From the IMG/VR virus record IMGVR_UViG_3300005577_000076, positions 1 to 26,716 of that record: a stretch of 26,716 nt of DNA, one strand, 5' to 3'. Below the pieces are notes generated by a model that was given only the letters and a program-made list of their open reading frames with translations, searched no databases and was not told the DNA's origin. This DNA is from a virus. A program made the translations under genes and the position numbers. Below are positions 13,826 to 26,632 of the stretch, piece after piece. Positions within the stretch are counted from its first letter, which is position 1. The number at the start of each line of letters is the position of its first letter.

Positions 13826-15534
13826 TGGTCGATTTTAACAACGTCGTTCGCCTAAACTTCGACATTCCGCAAGGGCTGGGTGGTGCGTCCACCGTCCGCG
13901 TTTCGCGCGATGCCGCGCAGGTATGGAGCGGGGTGTCGCAGCTGGCCTTCCAAACCGCCAACAAGGTGCAGCAGAATGAAGCCGAACGGGTGAAGCTCGA
14001 GGCCAGTAAGCAAGGCATTACTGACTATGTGGAAGGCAAAGCCACGCTTGATAATCTGCCACCCGACGACACCATCCGCAACCAGGCTTACCGCAGCGCC
14101 GCCCTGAATGGTGCCTCCGTGGATCTCGACGTGGACATGCAGAGCAATTTCGGGAAGATCCTGGCGGAAAATCCCAATGACCCGGAAACCATCGCCAAGC
14201 AAACCCAAGCCTATGTGCAGGGTAAGCAGGACGTTTTGGTGCAAAAAGCCCCCGACCTGCTGGAACGCTTCACCACTTCGGCCGGATCGATGCGCGGCAA
14301 AATGCTCGCCACCGCTCAAGGCAACCTGGTGCAGAAGCAGCGCGACGAAGCAAAGGCCCGCGTGAACACGGCAGAGCAAGCCTACGCACCAATGGCGGCC
14401 GACGCGCTGGCCCGGGGCGATCACGAGCTCTTTCAGGAAACCATGTCGAAGATGCACACCGTCTACTCCGACGCGGTGAGTGTGAACGCGCTTCTCCCTG
14501 CCGAAGCCGCCGAGAAGGCGATCGTGGCCGAGCGGAAGATCCGCAACCAGGCGCTCACCCTGCAGGGCCTCCGTGCCGGCGACCCGGTAAAGTTCGTGAG
14601 CAGCCTGCCGGAGGTTGCCGTGAAGAACGGGCTCGAGGCCGACGACGTGGTGGAGATCACCAACAAAACCATCAGCTACGCCAGCCAAAAAAATACGATG
14701 GAAGAACAGGCACGCGTTAAAAATGAGCGTGCAACTAAGCTCCAAGCGGCGTCTGATTACCTTGACCTGAAAGTGAAAGCCGATGCACACCAGCTCACCA
14801 GCGACGATATTCGCGCCTATGGGGATAAATACAAAAGCTCCTTCGATGTTAGCTCCGACATCACCCAGCTTTTCTCATCTAAAAAAGAAGCTGCTCAATC
14901 TAGCGACCTGGCGACCCTCGCCCAAACCTATAAGGGCGTCAGCGACCGATCCGAAACTGTGGATTCCATCATCACAAAACACAAGGCTGGCCTCCTTTCT
15001 ACGCAGGATAGCCGGGATCTCGTAGAAATGGTTGCTAACTCCGATAAGAATAACGTGATCAACAGCCAGCAATATAAAACTTTCCAGCAGCAGCTCTCCA
15101 CCGTGTTCCCCGCCACCGATGGCGCAGCCATACCCGGCATGCCGAAGTGGATGCAAAACGTCGACGAACAGGCAACACAGCTCCGCAAAACCGCAGAGCT
15201 CGAGGCTCAACGCCGGCTGCTTGATAAGCCCGACGACATTTCCTCGATCGGAGAATGGGGCAACGAAATCATTACCCGCGTTGCTGGCCCGCGCTACACC
15301 CAGCAGCAGATGATGGCCCTCCGTTCGCAGGCCACCGGCATCCTCGGCGGGGTGGACGTGTTCAACAGCCGCTACGATTGGCCTACCGTTCAGGAGATGA
15401 TTGTGAAAAGATATGCCAGCGACGACCGCCAGGCAGCGCAAAAACTTCGTGAAATGGAGCTCATCACGAACCGTTATAACCAGCTCCTAGACTCAACAGC
15501 AAAGGTGCAAAATGGCAAACCTGCAGCAAAATAA
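13825..15534 (+). CDS. Internal virion (ejection) protein, T7 gp15-like, 569 aa
   Basis: ATG at 13825 overlaps the previous stop (TAATG). The protein is almost entirely predicted helix and rich in Ala, Gln, Asp and Lys, without membrane segments. Repeated heptad-like stretches occur around QVWSGVSQLAFQTANKVQQ and YVQGKQDVLVQKAPDLLERF. T7 gp15 (747) is a helical protein that forms the periplasmic part of the ejection tube, and this shorter one occupies the same slot between gp14-like and gp16-like. The assignment is by position and composition. It overlaps the next gene by 23 bases. Confidence 0.72.
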   Translation: MVDFNNVVRLNFDIPQGLGGASTVRVSRDAAQVWSGVSQLAFQTANKVQQNEAERVKLEASKQGITDYVEGKATLDNLPPDDTIRNQAYRSAALNGASVDLDVDMQSNFGKILAENPNDPETIAKQTQAYVQGKQDVLVQKAPDLLERFTTSAGSMRGKMLATAQGNLVQKQRDEAKARVNTAEQAYAPMAADALARGDHELFQETMSKMHTVYSDAVSVNALLPAEAAEKAIVAERKIRNQALTLQGLRAGDPVKFVSSLPEVAVKNGLEADDVVEITNKTISYASQKNTMEEQARVKNERATKLQAASDYLDLKVKADAHQLTSDDIRAYGDKYKSSFDVSSDITQLFSSKKEAAQSSDLATLAQTYKGVSDRSETVDSIITKHKAGLLSTQDSRDLVEMVANSDKNNVINSQQYKTFQQQLSTVFPATDGAAIPGMPKWMQNVDEQATQLRKTAELEAQRRLLDKPDDISSIGEWGNEIITRVAGPRYTQQQMMALRSQATGILGGVDVFNSRYDWPTVQEMIVKRYASDDRQAAQKLREMELITNRYNQLLDSTAKVQNGKPAAK

Positions 15535-18500
15535 CGACCAGCTTTACCTGCAGGGGCAACAGGCCAAACAGGTTGACCCTTACCTTGACCAGGTGCAGCA
15601 GATTAAGGCCCGCATCGCCGGCACTCCCACCGGCCCCGGGCGTCCGGCCGAAGGATCCTCCCCCACCACCCCGGCCGTGAATGCCGAGCTCGCCCCCGCC
15701 ACCGCGCCCATCAAGCCCACCGGCCCGGTAATCACACCCGAGCGCGTACAAACCCACCTGCAGGCCGACACCGCCACCTTCAACGGTGGCAAAATCGCGT
15801 TTGAACCTTCCCCCAGCTGGGAAGAGGACATCGGCTACCGCACCGTGATTGGTGGTGCGCGTGATGCGGCCGAGAGCGTGAAGAACCTCACCGTCGACCT
15901 CGGCAACCTGGTTGCTAAAAATGTGCTCGACCCCGCCGCCTCCTACCTCGCCAACACCAAGCCCGGATCCCCCGAGTATTACGACGCGCTGGCGGAAAAC
16001 CTCAAGTCGCGCTTTTCCCTCCCCGACGTTCCCGAGCCCGACCGGGCTATTCTCGGTTACGCGCGGCCGGTAGTGCAGTTCCTCGCCCCCTTCGCTGCCA
16101 TTGGCAAGGTAGGCATGATCGCCAAGGCTGGCGACGCACTCGAGAGCGGTGTGCAAATCCTCGCATCCAAAACCGGCAGTAAGGTTGTGGAAAAGGTCGC
16201 CGGCGCTGCAGCCAAGGGTATCGTTCCGGGCGCGGCCGCAGACTTCACCGCCTTCGAGCCCGACCAAAAACGGCTTTCCGATCTGCTTACCAGCGTGGAC
16301 AACCCGGTGCTCAACAACACCGTAACGCAATACCTTGCCCACCATGGCGACGACACCCCGCTCGAAGGCCGCCTGAAAAATGCGATCGAAGGTGCCGGCC
16401 TCGGCGGCTTGGTAAACGAGCTTATCCTCGGCATTAAAGCGACCAAAGCCAGCGGTGCGATGCGCCAGGTGGAAGGTGCTGCCGGCCGTGCCACCGCCGC
16501 CGGCGCTGATGCCGCCCCCGGTACTACCCCGCAAGCTGCCGCGCAAGCCACCCTATCCCCCGGGGCCGAGGTAAAGGCTGAAACGGGTGCCGGCGCTACC
16601 CACGCCACCGACCCCCTGATCAACGCCGGCGAGAAGCAACCAACCCCGGCTGCAGCTGCAGAAGCTCCGGCCGCACCAGCTGCTCCTATCTTCGCCCAAG
16701 CCGACCCCGCTGCCCGCGACCTGGCTATTCGCGTAATGCTGGGAGAAGCCAGCAACCAAGGCGATGAGGGCCTCGCTGCCGTCGCAAATGTTTATGCGAA
16801 CCGAGCAACGGCCGGGAAATACGGCAAAGATCTCGGCGGCATCCTGAAAAAGAAAGGTGCCTTCGAGGCCTACGGCGACCCCACCGCCCGGGCAAAGCTG
16901 ATGGCGATTGACCCCAACAGCGAGGAATATAAAAAAGCCGCGCAGATCTTCGATGAGGTTTCCAATGGCACCCGGCCGGACAACACCGGCGGGGCTACCC
17001 ACTACCTCAACCGCAACCTGCAGGCCGCCGAAGGGCGCGATCAACCGAAGTGGTCGAAGGGCAAGGTGCTTGCCCAGGTTGGCGACCACACATTCCTCTC
17101 CCCCGACGGAGCCCCGGTAATCAGGGGCGTTAGCGCATCTAAGGCTCCGGCCGGAGCGGAAACGCTGGTAGTAAACTCCGCCGCCCCGGGAACCAGCGCC
17201 GAGCGCCTGGCGGCCGAACAAGCCGTTCCCCCCGTCACCCCGCAGGCGAAGCAGGCGAAGATGGCGCAGTTCGTCAAGAATGCCCGCGATGGCCTATGGG
17301 ATAAGGCATGGGATGATATTCACCCCATCAAAAACATGGACGATAACGAGCTGGCGAAGGTCGTGGGTGAGCTCTACAACACCGAGAAGGCCGCCGTTGA
17401 GGCTGGACGTGGTGGGGCAAAGGTTGACGCCACCGGCCGCCGCGTGATGAGCGATGCCGAGCTGGCAGATCTCACCGCCAAATCCGGCCTCACCGCCGAC
17501 GATGTGCTTTCCTTCACCGAGGATCAGCTCTCCAACTTCGAGGTGAACGCCAACCTCACCCGCTACATCGCCCGCGCGTCCGCCAAAAACCTCAAGGCGG
17601 CGACCGACGAGGTTTACACCAGCGGCGGTTCCCCCGAGGCATACGAGAAGCTCACCGATGCGTACCGTTTCGGCCTCCGCGCCCTCACCGCCAAGGCCCG
17701 CGTTGCCGCCGCCTCCGCCCGCAGCTTGCGGATGGAGCGTTTCTTCACCGAGGAAAACCAGCTGGCCGTCGGCCTGCAGAAGGCCTTATCCGACGTGCGG
17801 AACGTGAACACCGTGCGGATTGGTGAGATCATGAAGAACATGAACAACGACCAGGCTGGCGATTTCCTCGTCGAGCTCGGCCGCCGGAGTTATGCCCAGC
17901 GTGCCGGCGATGCGGTTTATGAAGCCTTCGTGAACAATATCCTCTCCGGCCCCGCCACCCACCTCACCAACATCGTGAGCAACCTGGCCTACGGGGCGCA
18001 AGAGCTCACCGCCCACGCGGTATCCGCCATCCCCGGGGCCCGCAAGGCCTTTCGTCGTTACCAAAACTTCCGGGGCGCGAACCTCGGCCCTGCCGGCCAG
18101 GCCAACATCAACACCTTCGATGAAACCCGGGCAATGCTCACCTCGAGCCTGCAGGGCTTCTCTGATGCGATTTCCCTTTACGGCAAGCACGTCGTTGCCC
18201 CCGCGCTCGAGGGCGACTTTGTAGGAGCTGCCAAGGGCTTCTCGACAGCAGCCGACGCGGTGGAGAAGCTCACCCCCTCCGGCGCACAAGGTTCCAAGTT
18301 TGAGAGCGGCCCCGGTGCCATCAGCGGCGACCTGCTCAATCCCTTCGCCAGCATGCGCGACCGCGACGACCACATTGGCGCTTTCGCCCGCATGACCGAC
18401 GTGGGTTTGGATTGGCTGGGCTGGACGCTCCGCCGCCCCACCGCCGTAATCAAGGGCACCGACGACATCTTCAAGGCCGCATGGTATCGCTCCGGCCTCA

Positions 18501-20065
18501 CCTATAACGCCATGCAGGCGGCGCAAACTGAAATGGTCGACCAGACGCTGCGTTCCGGCAAAGCCATCCTCGACCCGGATGCCTTCGCCAAGGCCAATAA
18601 AGAGGCCATCTGGCAGCGTGCCCAGGATCTGATGAGCCAATCCGACCCCAACCGTTTCTCGGCCGAGGACATCTTGAAGCAGGATCTGGTGCGCCGGTAT
18701 GCCTCCGATCTGGCAAAAGACTGGACTTTCCAAAGCGAAATGGGGAAAACCGGCGAGGCCGTGCAGAACCTGGTGAGCAACCTGCCTACCGCGAAGTTCG
18801 TGCTGCCCTTCGTCCGCACCCCCACAAACCTCATCTACAAGGGAATTATTCAGTATTCTCCGCTGGCCGATGCCCCGATGCTCACCCGCTTCAACGGCCA
18901 GATCCGCGAAGCCATCCAGCGCGGCGGCCCCGAAGCCGACCTGGCAATGGCGCGGGTAGCGGTGGGCACAAGCCTGATGGCGGCCATGACCGGCCTTGCG
19001 ATGGACGGCCGGGTGCAATGTTCCCTCTCCTACGACCCGGGCAAGCGCAACGTGCAGCGTGGTGTAGGGTTGCAGCCGGACTCCGTATCCATCAACGGCC
19101 AAAACTACAGCTTCCAAAAGATACAGCCGATGGCCCTCACCGCCTGCATGGCTACCGATATTTCCAATGCCCTCAAGGTTTACAACCCGGCCGACCCGGA
19201 CGAGGACAATGCGATGATGCGGATGGTTGGTGCCGGCGTGAACGCCATCGCCGCCAGCGTGGGCAACAGTACCTGGATGGAGAGCTTCGCGCAGTTCTTC
19301 GGCATTCTCTCCGGCACACAGAATGACGGCCGCACGATTGGCGATTTCCTCTCCCGCCAGATTTCCTCGGCCGCCGTGCCGCTTTCCGGGCTCATGAAGC
19401 AGACGACGCGCGAGGTTGATCCCTATATGCGCGAAGCAACCTCCGTTTGGCAGCAGGCCCGGGCAATGATCCCCGGCCTCTCCGAAGGCCTGCCCGAGCG
19501 CCGTGACTTTGACGGCTACCCGGTTAAGCATACCGACGCGGTGAGCTGGGGCGTCCTGCCGGTGAGCCGCACCAAGATCTCCACCGACCCGGTTTACCAG
19601 GAGTATTACCGCCTCAACATGAGCATGGAAATGCCGCCGCGCTCGGTCGGGAACGGCACCCGCATGAACAACGAGGAATACAGCACCTTCCTCGGCATCA
19701 TGGCGGACGGCAAAATCTTCCCCGGGGCGGATGGTAAGATGCTCACTCACCACCAATACGTCGAGAAACTGCTCAATAGTGACCAATATAACAAGGATTT
19801 TGAGGCGTATTTCGATAAGATGTATGCCCAACACCCCGAGCTGCCCGACAGCGCGGCCGATGCCCTGCGTGCAAATATGCTCTCGCAGATCCGGCAAACC
19901 GCCATCAGGGGCGCACGCGCGGTGTTCCTTTCCTCCCCCGCCGGCGCGAATCTCCGCGACCGCATGGCGCGTGATGAATTAGGCACGCTGGACATCGACA
20001 TAAACAACGCGATGTCGACAATCCCCGTTGAACAGCCGGTGTTAAACATGATACCGAAAAGGTAA
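15512..20065 (+). CDS. Large internal virion protein with SleB-type cell wall hydrolase domain, T7 gp16-like, 1517 aa
   Basis: The largest ejection protein; AAGG lies six bases before the ATG at 15512. Residues 1-300 are polar and helical, and 310-390 are an Ala/Pro-rich linker. Residues about 395-530 match the cell wall hydrolase SleB (Hydrolase_2) family, with ARDLAIRVMLGEASNQGDEG carrying the probable catalytic Glu412, then AVANVYANRA, a GAFEAYG segment, and GGATHYLN through VGDHTFLSPDG. The rest (about 980 residues) is helical and contains NNILSGPATHLTNIVSNL, often seen in podovirus ejection proteins. In T7 gp16 (1318 residues) a lytic transglycosylase lies at the N-terminus; here a different hydrolase fold seems to do that job, opening the peptidoglycan during DNA entry. 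The stop is 14 bases before the fibre gene. Confidence 0.85.
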   Translation: MANLQQNNDQLYLQGQQAKQVDPYLDQVQQIKARIAGTPTGPGRPAEGSSPTTPAVNAELAPATAPIKPTGPVITPERVQTHLQADTATFNGGKIAFEPSPSWEEDIGYRTVIGGARDAAESVKNLTVDLGNLVAKNVLDPAASYLANTKPGSPEYYDALAENLKSRFSLPDVPEPDRAILGYARPVVQFLAPFAAIGKVGMIAKAGDALESGVQILASKTGSKVVEKVAGAAAKGIVPGAAADFTAFEPDQKRLSDLLTSVDNPVLNNTVTQYLAHHGDDTPLEGRLKNAIEGAGLGGLVNELILGIKATKASGAMRQVEGAAGRATAAGADAAPGTTPQAAAQATLSPGAEVKAETGAGATHATDPLINAGEKQPTPAAAAEAPAAPAAPIFAQADPAARDLAIRVMLGEASNQGDEGLAAVANVYANRATAGKYGKDLGGILKKKGAFEAYGDPTARAKLMAIDPNSEEYKKAAQIFDEVSNGTRPDNTGGATHYLNRNLQAAEGRDQPKWSKGKVLAQVGDHTFLSPDGAPVIRGVSASKAPAGAETLVVNSAAPGTSAERLAAEQAVPPVTPQAKQAKMAQFVKNARDGLWDKAWDDIHPIKNMDDNELAKVVGELYNTEKAAVEAGRGGAKVDATGRRVMSDAELADLTAKSGLTADDVLSFTEDQLSNFEVNANLTRYIARASAKNLKAATDEVYTSGGSPEAYEKLTDAYRFGLRALTAKARVAAASARSLRMERFFTEENQLAVGLQKALSDVRNVNTVRIGEIMKNMNNDQAGDFLVELGRRSYAQRAGDAVYEAFVNNILSGPATHLTNIVSNLAYGAQELTAHAVSAIPGARKAFRRYQNFRGANLGPAGQANINTFDETRAMLTSSLQGFSDAISLYGKHVVAPALEGDFVGAAKGFSTAADAVEKLTPSGAQGSKFESGPGAISGDLLNPFASMRDRDDHIGAFARMTDVGLDWLGWTLRRPTAVIKGTDDIFKAAWYRSGLTYNAMQAAQTEMVDQTLRSGKAILDPDAFAKANKEAIWQRAQDLMSQSDPNRFSAEDILKQDLVRRYASDLAKDWTFQSEMGKTGEAVQNLVSNLPTAKFVLPFVRTPTNLIYKGIIQYSPLADAPMLTRFNGQIREAIQRGGPEADLAMARVAVGTSLMAAMTGLAMDGRVQCSLSYDPGKRNVQRGVGLQPDSVSINGQNYSFQKIQPMALTACMATDISNALKVYNPADPDEDNAMMRMVGAGVNAIAASVGNSTWMESFAQFFGILSGTQNDGRTIGDFLSRQISSAAVPLSGLMKQTTREVDPYMREATSVWQQARAMIPGLSEGLPERRDFDGYPVKHTDAVSWGVLPVSRTKISTDPVYQEYYRLNMSMEMPPRSVGNGTRMNNEEYSTFLGIMADGKIFPGADGKMLTHHQYVEKLLNSDQYNKDFEAYFDKMYAQHPELPDSAADALRANMLSQIRQTAIRGARAVFLSSPAGANLRDRMARDELGTLDIDINNAMSTIPVEQPVLNMIPKR

Positions 20066-20079
20066 CGAGGTATTAAAAC

Positions 20080-20523
20080 ATGGCCGATGAAGTCGTTTTA
20101 GAGCAGCAGCCGCTCAACATCTACACCGCAACGGTGGGTCAGGATGATTTCGATTTCCAGTTCCGCGTTGACAAGGAAGAATGGCTTAACTTCACCGTCG
20201 ACAGCGTTGTGATGATCGATGGCATCGATTATGAGATCGTAACTGGCGGCCTCGAGGATCCTGATGGCGGCACCGTTCACCTCTTCACCCCGCTCGATGG
20301 CGGGGAAGTCGTGAGCTTGAGCCGTAACGTCGTGCTCTCCCGCGATAACCGCTACAGCGCCGGCAGCGATATTTCCTCCGAAGCCCTTGAGTCTGATTTG
20401 GATACGATTTGGATGGTGCTGCAGGATCAGCGCCGCGACATCGACCGCCGCATCGGCTTCCCCATCGATAGCGTGATTGACGCAACGGTCGTCGGCCTCC
20501 CCCCCCCTCGAACGACCTGGTGA
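20080..20523 (+). CDS. Tail fibre anchor, T7 gp17 N-terminal domain-like, 147 aa (5' part of a split spike gene)
   Basis: This part attaches the fibre to the tail. GAGG lies nine bases before the ATG. Residues 5-115 match the T7 tail fibre N-terminal domain: IYTATVGQDDFDFQFRV, GIDYEIVTGGLEDPDGGTV, and a helical neck (ALESDLDTIWMVLQDQRRDIDRRIG). After LPPP the frame ends RTTW-stop. In the -1 frame the text continues as PSNDLVIAWDGNLG, which is what normally follows this domain in podovirus fibres. The frame change lies at a run of nine C (20499-20507). I regard this and the following frame as one gene of about 1156 codons, either shifted by the ribosome or polymerase, varied in phase, or broken by a sequencing error. 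Confidence 0.85.
   Translation: MADEVVLEQQPLNIYTATVGQDDFDFQFRVDKEEWLNFTVDSVVMIDGIDYEIVTGGLEDPDGGTVHLFTPLDGGEVVSLSRNVVLSRDNRYSAGSDISSEALESDLDTIWMVLQDQRRDIDRRIGFPIDSVIDATVVGLPPPRTTW
20499..20507 (+). other. C9 homopolymer: frame-change site in the tail spike gene
   Basis: Nine C separate the anchor frame from the spike frame. The spike frame is closed upstream by TGA at 20478 and the anchor frame closes at TGA 20521, so the switch must fall in 20481-20520, and this run is the only homopolymer there. One extra C, or a -1 slip on the CCC-CCC codons, joins the frames without any other change. Confidence 0.75.
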
Positions 20524-23500
20524 TCGCGTGGGATGGCAACCTCGGCAAAATGAAGAACGGCCCGAGCACCGCCAGCATTTCCGCCGCCTCCGGCTTCGCA
20601 GCTGCAGCATCCGCCTCCGCCATCGCCTCCGCCGGCAGCGCCGCCCTCGCACAAAACTATGCCGCCGCCGCGCAAGCAGCGGTTGACCAGGCGGTCGGTG
20701 TTCCCGGCAACAGCCTGGTTCGCCCGTCCGGGGCCATTCTTTTCCGCTCCCTCTCCGACCATTTGAGCCAGGGTGCCAAGGTTTTTCACTCCAAGGATTT
20801 TAGCGGTATCGACCACACCGGCGTCACCGACAGCCTCTCGGGGATGCAAAAGTTCTTCAACAAGGCGGGCGACCTCAACAGCCACACCATCCTCATCATC
20901 GACTCCGGCAAGATCAAGCTCGGGAACGACGTGGCCGCGATGAGCGCCATCCTGGGCAACCTCACCATCAACGCCATCAAATACCTCTCGACCAACGTGG
21001 TGAAGGTTAATATGTCCTTGGGTAGCGCACTCACCAGCTCTACCGTTATCAACGCCATTGCCACCGGCAGCTCCTTCCTCACCATCGAGGGCGCGGCGAA
21101 CGACGATAACAACGGCCGCTTCACGATTACCGACATGAAGAACGCCTCGGCATCTTCTACGGCCAACGGCAGCACCGATACCTTCTCCTTCCCCTCCTAC
21201 CTCGAGAATGCCGGCGAGCTCACCGTCACCGTCGCCAAGAGCTACACCGGCGATGGATCCACCGTCACCTATGCCTTCCCCCCGCAAATCTCCGCTGCCG
21301 GCGAGCTGGCCGTTACCGTGGCTGGCGTGCTCAAAACGAACGGCGTGCATTACAACATCGATACTGGCGGCGTAGGCAACCCTGCCGGCGGCACCATCAC
21401 CTTCACCGGTGGCAACACCCCGGCCAACCTGGCGGCGATTGTGCTCACCGCAACAAAGGTGAACGGTGTCCACTACAACATCAACACCGGCGGCCTGCAG
21501 AACCTCACCGGCGGCATGATTACCTTCACCTCCGGCAACGTACCCGCCAACGCCACCACCGTCGCGCTGCAGGGGCAGAAGTATGTGCTCATCAGCACCA
21601 CCCGCTCCGACGCCAGCCTGGACGAAACCAGCCTCAACCTCACCAGCAACACCAACCGCATCCGCATCGCGGGCATGGAGTCACTCTACTACCGCGACAA
21701 CTGCACCATCATCTGCCACGCGGAGCTCATCGACTATATCAACACCGGCAAAAACTTCTGCATCAGCAGCTATAACCCGGATAACGATGCCGGCATCCTC
21801 ACCGTTCAGGTGTTTTGGGATTTTCAGGGCGGCTTCCTTCGCTTCCCCGATGTGAGAAACTTCACGCAGAGCCAAAAAGGGCTCGGCATGACCAACGTGG
21901 AATACTTCGGTGTGAAGGGCTATCGCACCGTCGGATACATGGAAAACAGCTTTACCGGGCAGGGCCGCAACTCTCGCTACGGTGTTATCACCGGCGCTGG
22001 TATTTTCAGCGGCGACACCGTGGGCGAGGATGGATGGCACCACACCCGCAACTGCTGGGATATTATCATTGCCGACATGATCATCTTCGGGGGTGACGAC
22101 TGCATCAGCCTTACCCAGGAGAACGACGCGGCCGCCTACCTGATGGAGCGCATTCAGATCTCCAACTGTATCCTCCGCACCAAGAACAATAGCTCCTTCA
22201 AGTGCCTGCTGGACTCCGTGAGCGTGAATGCCGGCGCACGCATCCGCGACATCACCGTCAACGGTTGCCACTTCGGCGTTCAAAACAACACCGGCGCGGG
22301 TTCCCTCGTCCGCCTCACCACCATCACCGGCTTCGAGGAAAGCCTCTGCGATGTGATCCTTAGCGATTGCACGATGGATAACCAGGCGGGCGGCGTAGGC
22401 TTCCTCGCCAGCACCAGCATCCGCTTCGATTACACCGCCCGTTGCCAGCTCTCCGACAGCTCCATCACCGGCTGCGTCCGCAACGCCATCATCATGAATG
22501 GCGGCTATGACAACGTGATCAAGGATAACCTCATCGGCATGCCGGCGACGCAGGCCTCCGTGACCGACGTTACCGGCACCATCACCGACATTGCCTCGGT
22601 ATCTGGCACCACCATGAAGGCGACCTTCTCCGGCTCCCCGGACTTCTCCACCGTCGGAGCGACCTTCACCACCATCACCATCACCGGCGCGGCGCTGCCT
22701 TCCAACAACGGCACGTTCATCGTCACCACCTCCGACAACACCCTGAAAACGGTGAGCTACACCAAGCACGCCAAGGTGGCCGGGGCTTCCTTTAACGAAA
22801 CCGGACTCACCGCCACCGGCACCGTGCGGAAGCAGGCTGGTGAGCTTATCTCCCTCGCGGGCGGGGATTGCCACAAGATCTCCGGCAACGATTTCATCGG
22901 TTCCTACACCGACGCCGGCGGCAAACTCGTCACCGCCATCAATGCCATCGTGCTCAAAACCAACTCCGCCACCAGCCAAGAGCCGGTGAACATTCGCATC
23001 AACGACAACCACTTCGAGAAGTTTGTCACCAGCGGCATCGTGTTCCTGCAAAACGGGCAATACATCATGGTCGACGGCAACAAGGCGTGCAAAAACACCG
23101 CGACCGTCTGGCTGCTCGAGGGCTCCGGCGCGACCGGCAACAACGTGTTCCTCGACAACGAGGAATATGGCAACCAGCGCACCGTTGCGAGCTTCCAAAT
23201 GGCGAAGGCAACCAGCCGCCACCAGCGCAATATGGGCAGCAATGCCGACGTTGTGACCGGCACCGCCACCCTGCTCGCGGCCGCCACCACCATCGTTATA
23301 AACATTCCCGACTCCACCACCGGCCCGTCTGGCACAAACGCTGCATCCGACGACGCGACCCTTGGCTGGACGCAGGGCTTTAACCAGGGCGACCCGAAGC
23401 CGCTGAACTTCTCGTTCGTATTCACCAGCTCCCCGGGCAACGCAACGGCATGGTGGGTGGGCTATAACAGCGGCACCCGCAACCTCACCATCACTTTCAA

Positions 23501-23549
23501 CAACGCACCAGGCGCTGATGCTACGATCGCTTGGCGACTCTTCCTCTAA
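20520..23549 (+). CDS. Tail spike, beta-helix with GH28-like motif, about 1009 aa (3' part of a split gene)
   Basis: The host-binding and probably polysaccharide-degrading part of the spike. The nominal GTG start at 20520 has no ribosome binding site, and protein-like text begins before it, supporting continuity with the anchor. After an Ala/Ser-rich helix (residues 18-60) come beta modules, including two tandem copies of GVHYNIxTGGxxNxxGGxITF about 41 residues apart. Residues about 380-700 form a right-handed beta-helix-like region, with NCWDIIIADMIIFGGDDCIS holding GGDDC at residues 524-528, the GH28 (polygalacturonase-like) acidic motif. The C-terminus is beta-rich and ends in ATIAWRLFL, typical of trimerising spike ends. 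The substrate cannot be told from sequence. Confidence 0.85.
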   Translation: MIAWDGNLGKMKNGPSTASISAASGFAAAASASAIASAGSAALAQNYAAAAQAAVDQAVGVPGNSLVRPSGAILFRSLSDHLSQGAKVFHSKDFSGIDHTGVTDSLSGMQKFFNKAGDLNSHTILIIDSGKIKLGNDVAAMSAILGNLTINAIKYLSTNVVKVNMSLGSALTSSTVINAIATGSSFLTIEGAANDDNNGRFTITDMKNASASSTANGSTDTFSFPSYLENAGELTVTVAKSYTGDGSTVTYAFPPQISAAGELAVTVAGVLKTNGVHYNIDTGGVGNPAGGTITFTGGNTPANLAAIVLTATKVNGVHYNINTGGLQNLTGGMITFTSGNVPANATTVALQGQKYVLISTTRSDASLDETSLNLTSNTNRIRIAGMESLYYRDNCTIICHAELIDYINTGKNFCISSYNPDNDAGILTVQVFWDFQGGFLRFPDVRNFTQSQKGLGMTNVEYFGVKGYRTVGYMENSFTGQGRNSRYGVITGAGIFSGDTVGEDGWHHTRNCWDIIIADMIIFGGDDCISLTQENDAAAYLMERIQISNCILRTKNNSSFKCLLDSVSVNAGARIRDITVNGCHFGVQNNTGAGSLVRLTTITGFEESLCDVILSDCTMDNQAGGVGFLASTSIRFDYTARCQLSDSSITGCVRNAIIMNGGYDNVIKDNLIGMPATQASVTDVTGTITDIASVSGTTMKATFSGSPDFSTVGATFTTITITGAALPSNNGTFIVTTSDNTLKTVSYTKHAKVAGASFNETGLTATGTVRKQAGELISLAGGDCHKISGNDFIGSYTDAGGKLVTAINAIVLKTNSATSQEPVNIRINDNHFEKFVTSGIVFLQNGQYIMVDGNKACKNTATVWLLEGSGATGNNVFLDNEEYGNQRTVASFQMAKATSRHQRNMGSNADVVTGTATLLAAATTIVINIPDSTTGPSGTNAASDDATLGWTQGFNQGDPKPLNFSFVFTSSPGNATAWWVGYNSGTRNLTITFNNAPGADATIAWRLFL

Positions 23550-26604: not shown

Positions 26605-26632
26605 AAGCCCCCTTATTCGGGGGCTTTTGTTT
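26605..26632 (+). terminator. Intrinsic terminator after the lysis genes
   Basis: AAGCCCCC (26605-26612) pairs with GGGGGCTT (26619-26626), loop TTATTC, followed by TTTTGTTT. Stem and tail closely resemble the scaffold terminator at 9068. Confidence 0.78.

Follow-up and report, generated by a model that had tools for sequence, protein, structure and literature searches.

The window analysed here is a stretch of 26,716 nucleotides from an uncultured phage (positions 1 to 26,716 of the IMG/VR virus record IMGVR_UViG_3300005577_000076). Its predicted gene neighbourhood is that of a podovirus structural block, with genes for a portal, a major capsid protein, a tail protein and an internal virion protein, and with spanin- and endolysin-like genes downstream. 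Within the internal virion protein (1517 aa; 15512–20065) residues 389–509 match PHROG 15649, which is annotated as endolysin, and residues 1062–1415 match the internal virion protein PHROG 6651.

This gene is followed on the plus strand by two overlapping open frames. The first (20080–20523) encodes an N-terminal tail-fibre anchor, 147 aa as written, which starts at an ATG preceded by a Shine-Dalgarno-like GAGG and ends in ...VVGLPPPRTTW*. Residues 9–118 match the tail protein PHROG 1640 (E = 7.7e-9) at the N terminus of its 765-aa profile; the anchor also matches PHROG 6518 (E = 6.3e-6) and a profile of 18 fibre sequences (59 bits), and gave no match in Pfam at E 0.001. On the homology of this domain the gene is predicted to be a member of the T7-type tail fibres and spikes. 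The second frame is open from 20481 to a stop at 23549 and overlaps the anchor ORF by about 40 nt (20481–20523). Its product, 1009 aa when counted from the earliest possible start codon (20520–23549), is called the spike here, a label taken from a preliminary description of this DNA and kept for convenience.

The spike consists of an alanine-rich stalk, anchor-like repeats and a long distal part. Its sequence has no match in PHROG, Pfam or PDB, and an AlphaFold model of the spike alone from a single sequence was unusable (pLDDT 34.6). The alanine-rich region after the neck has its like in the stalks of related fibres. An anchor-like domain is present within the spike (21218–21551, plus strand) in two partly nested copies, with a 91-nt repeat, 74% identical and 123 nt apart, and is similar to the gene's own N-terminal anchor (E = 3e-5) as well as to the N termini of fibres from Prochlorococcus and Pelagibacter phages (cyanophages and pelagiphages). 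It may serve another tail protein as a dock, or may be left over from a duplication. Doubled anchors may also exist outside this phage, since one related fibre (locus L190, 2995–4554) seems, by eye, to carry a second anchor-like domain shortly behind the first.

The spike frame is offset by −1 from the anchor frame and the two meet only at a run of nine C (C9) at 20499–20507 (plus strand; context CCT CCCCCCCCC TCGAAC), as had been described before and as direct reading of the sequence confirms. Through the run the anchor frame reads CTC CCC CCC CCT CGA ACG ACC TGG TGA and then ends; one base earlier, the sequence is read as CCC CCC CCC TCG AAC GAC CTG GTG, in a frame that stays open up to 23549. 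The run holds the heptamer C_CCC_CCC (20499–20505) and continues into C_CCC_CCU (20502–20508), both of which lie in the zero frame of the anchor and consequently in the correct phase for a −1 shift. A conceptual join of anchor and spike reads ...DATVVGLPPPSNDLVIAWDGNLGKMKNGPST, with ...VVGLPPPSNDLVIAWDGNLGK across the junction. The joined peptide is VVG-LPPPSNDLVIAWDGNLG, with three prolines after the leucine; the join at the neck proposed in the preliminary description stands, but the LPPPPS given there does not.

The position of the frame change was located independently of the run by a Viterbi frame model based on the codon usage of the window genes and blind to the run, which placed the coding switch at 20501/20502; a sliding codon-usage score located it at the same place. 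Every other frame change found by the model in the structural block can be ascribed to a gene boundary. Both halves are intact ORFs with a strong codon-usage signal, which implies that the break is either recent or functionally bridged. When the codons of the window genes were shuffled synonymously, 26 of 500 shuffles (5%) contained a run of at least nine C or G, and in a 39,029-bp relative C9 is the longest homopolymer, followed by one T8 and several runs of 7. A run of this length is only slightly out of the ordinary; that it falls at the frame change is much more so, since the chance that the longest run would fall within the frame overlap of about 40 nt is, by our estimate, roughly 1 in 1000.

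The first start codon of the spike frame is the GTG at 20520, which lies within the neck and overlaps the anchor stop TGA as GTGA. It has no Shine-Dalgarno sequence (+0.1 kcal/mol, against −7.2 kcal/mol at the anchor start), which bears out the earlier remark that the spike start lacks a ribosome binding site, and the spike frame appears to have no usable separate start. The ATG at 20550 was considered for this role and rejected: its energy (−6.0 kcal/mol) lies in the top 10% of random sites, and initiation there would remove the neck.

At 105 of 105 related loci, many of them redundant or nearly identical, the anchor continues into the fibre in one frame for more than 200 residues without a stop, which makes the window the exception. 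These loci come from viral and bacterial contigs and comprise 80 gathered with a marine family member as query, 20 retrieved with an alignment that had the joined sequence at its head (20–36% identical, the known copy being left out) and 5 from bacterial genomes. At the loci L192 and L194 the tblastn match passes through the junction in one frame. Among the set of 80 loci no neck contains a long run (C/G of at least 7, A/T of at least 8), which argues against an old and conserved recoding site. The neck itself (SNDLVIAWDGNLGKMK; 20508–20555, plus strand, in the −1 frame) stands where related fibres have their L-x-F/W-D-x-x-G neck. In alignments with 18 related fibres and L192, inclusion of the neck added 0.8 bit to the profile score of the anchor alone, a gain equalled by 34 of 500 shuffles, and pairwise p values ranged from 0.07 to 0.98, the best relative standing at about 0.07; homology of the neck is therefore suggestive but short of statistical significance. 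The comparison across the neck suggested in the preliminary description thus favours one gene through the unbroken frames of the relatives, while the match of the neck is weak. The consistently fused architecture, the switch of codon usage inside the run and the lack of a good spike start support the view that the two frames represent one ancestral gene whose frame changes at the C run.

Searches of phage records, by DNA or protein, returned no full-length relative, a search of bacterial genomes with the portal gave no match, and close relatives in viral contigs amount to one identical contig, IMGVR_UViG_3300026116_000066. This contig is identical over the 26,716 bases save three substitutions that lie within about 100 bases of the window end, and it also carries C9. 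The substitutions (T/C, at window positions 26613–26617 with respect to this longer contig) suggest strain variation or an artefact at the contig end. A scan for the site by a pattern in which the run could vary in length matched only the same contig, and no C-run length variants were seen in the sequence collections searched, where the site is represented by two contigs, both C9 and possibly derived from the same reads. The preliminary description had offered recoding, variation between C9 and C10 or loss of a C in assembly; what these share, one ancestral gene with a frame change at the C run, is upheld, and length variation in the population was not seen.

The explanation favoured here, with somewhat less than even confidence, is that C9 is a genuine frame-breaking length allele, recent or partly rescued, at a run prone to replication slippage in a normally fused spike gene. 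A single ancestral gene would have encoded one polypeptide made up of a T7-type anchor, the neck and the spike, and in this lineage the neck would have gained a long C run (CTC CCC CCC CC.) liable to slip during replication. With C9 in the assembled genomes the spike would be in the −1 frame and most translation would give the 147-aa anchor-only protein; full-length spike would be supplied by other genomes of the population in which the length of the run keeps the frame, by low-level −1 ribosomal slippage, or by both. The C9 allele would be recent and coexist with in-frame lengths, or would be tolerated because ribosomes slip by −1. Three elements of this explanation are inferred: the reality of the allele, variation of the run and the rescue. 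The second contig, identical and C9, argues against a one-off base error, although only in part, as a single set of reads or one sampling site may underlie both assemblies. Against a length allele, a C9 majority should be counter-selected if the spike is essential, unless it is rescued, and homology of the neck, which would be proof of the join, lacks significance. The order of preference, with recoding placed after the length allele, followed by assembly error and two separate proteins, is held with low certainty.

Recoding at a fixed C9, by which −1 frameshifting on C_CCC_CCC or C_CCC_CCU, programmed or of the 'savior' kind, would yield a minor full-length spike and an excess of anchor-only protein, is possible though rather unlikely. 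The heptamers are in the correct phase and both contigs are C9; moreover, few spike copies are needed per virion in T7. In E. coli, with a pseudoknot as stimulator, C_CCC_CCC is one of the motifs listed as shifting most efficiently to −1; when no stimulator was present, however, shift-prone motifs exceeded the background of about 0.05% by a factor of only 2.1 to 10 (PMC4066793). At this locus the downstream RNA is less structured than shuffled sequences (z +1.7 and +2.9) and has no Rfam match, the upstream sequence shows no Shine-Dalgarno-like stimulator, and the site is not conserved in the 80-locus set. A functional extension, in which C9 is maintained and anchor-only and anchor-plus-spike proteins are produced by −1 slippage or phase variation, such that spike number or attachment would vary between particles or genomes, is doubtful. 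Transcriptional slippage restoring the frame in some mRNAs is very improbable: the run is long enough (at least 8) and rescue on A11 is known in Citrobacter tssM (PMC4256274), but G and C runs are reported not to be prone to slippage in E. coli transcriptomes (PMC5574713).

A sequencing or assembly artefact, in which the real run is in frame and the consensus has lost a base, is unlikely, even though the break falls on a homopolymer in metagenome contigs, all relatives are fused and the spike is likely to be essential. The two contigs agree, the rest of the structural block has no further frame change beyond gene boundaries, and short reads, if such underlie these contigs, in general seldom miscall a C9/C10 majority. 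An arrangement of two proteins, with an anchor-adaptor and a spike that is made by stop-start coupling at the GTGA (20520–20523) and docks on the anchor, is improbable. The overlap leaves coupling formally possible, adaptor/spike pairs are found in other phages and anchor-like domains do occur within the spike; however, a purine before TGA creates such an overlap automatically and is common by chance, the GTG has the poor energy given above, the start of the spike would fall within the neck and none of the 105 related loci has this organisation. The GTGA overlap, the in-phase heptamers and the disfavoured status of transcriptional slippage on C runs were absent from the preliminary description.

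If the run truly varies or is recoded, it would give a podovirus a simple mutational or translational route to tune its receptor-binding protein. Invertible segments and diversity-generating elements are the routes otherwise known for such tuning. If it does not, the locus represents an ordinary slippage mutation or an assembly error, and calls for caution when split spikes are annotated in metagenomic phages. That the C run acts as an on/off switch for host attachment is speculation, and a limited search of the literature found no phage spike phase-varied by a homopolymer.

The gene shares with T7 gp17-type fibres (PHROG 1640; MEP301 gp22, HTVC035P gp46) an N-terminal anchor, an LxFDxxG-like neck, an Ala/Ser-rich stalk and a distal domain; in these relatives anchor and receptor-binding part lie in one unbroken frame, whereas here the frame is broken by −1 at C9. 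Slipped-strand phase variation at poly-C or poly-G tracts is known from Campylobacter surface genes and type III methyltransferase genes (PMC3711429; PMC10877375). There too the length of a C or G run within the coding frame determines whether a surface-acting protein is completed, and C9 is likewise a homopolymer in frame at the break; in contrast, the gene here belongs to a phage and the run is only nine long and was observed in a single length. In 'savior' systems, such as +1 frameshifting at CCC-AGG-C in E. coli rpoB (about 5%; PMC7022156) and the Citrobacter tssM indel rescued by transcriptional slippage on A11 (PMC4256274), the gene of an important protein is also out of frame beside a slippery tract. 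Rescue is demonstrated in those cases and only possible in the spike gene, and it would take place by −1 on a C run rather than by +1 or on poly-A. The behaviour of this gene would resemble either poly-C/G phase variation or 'savior' frameshifting.
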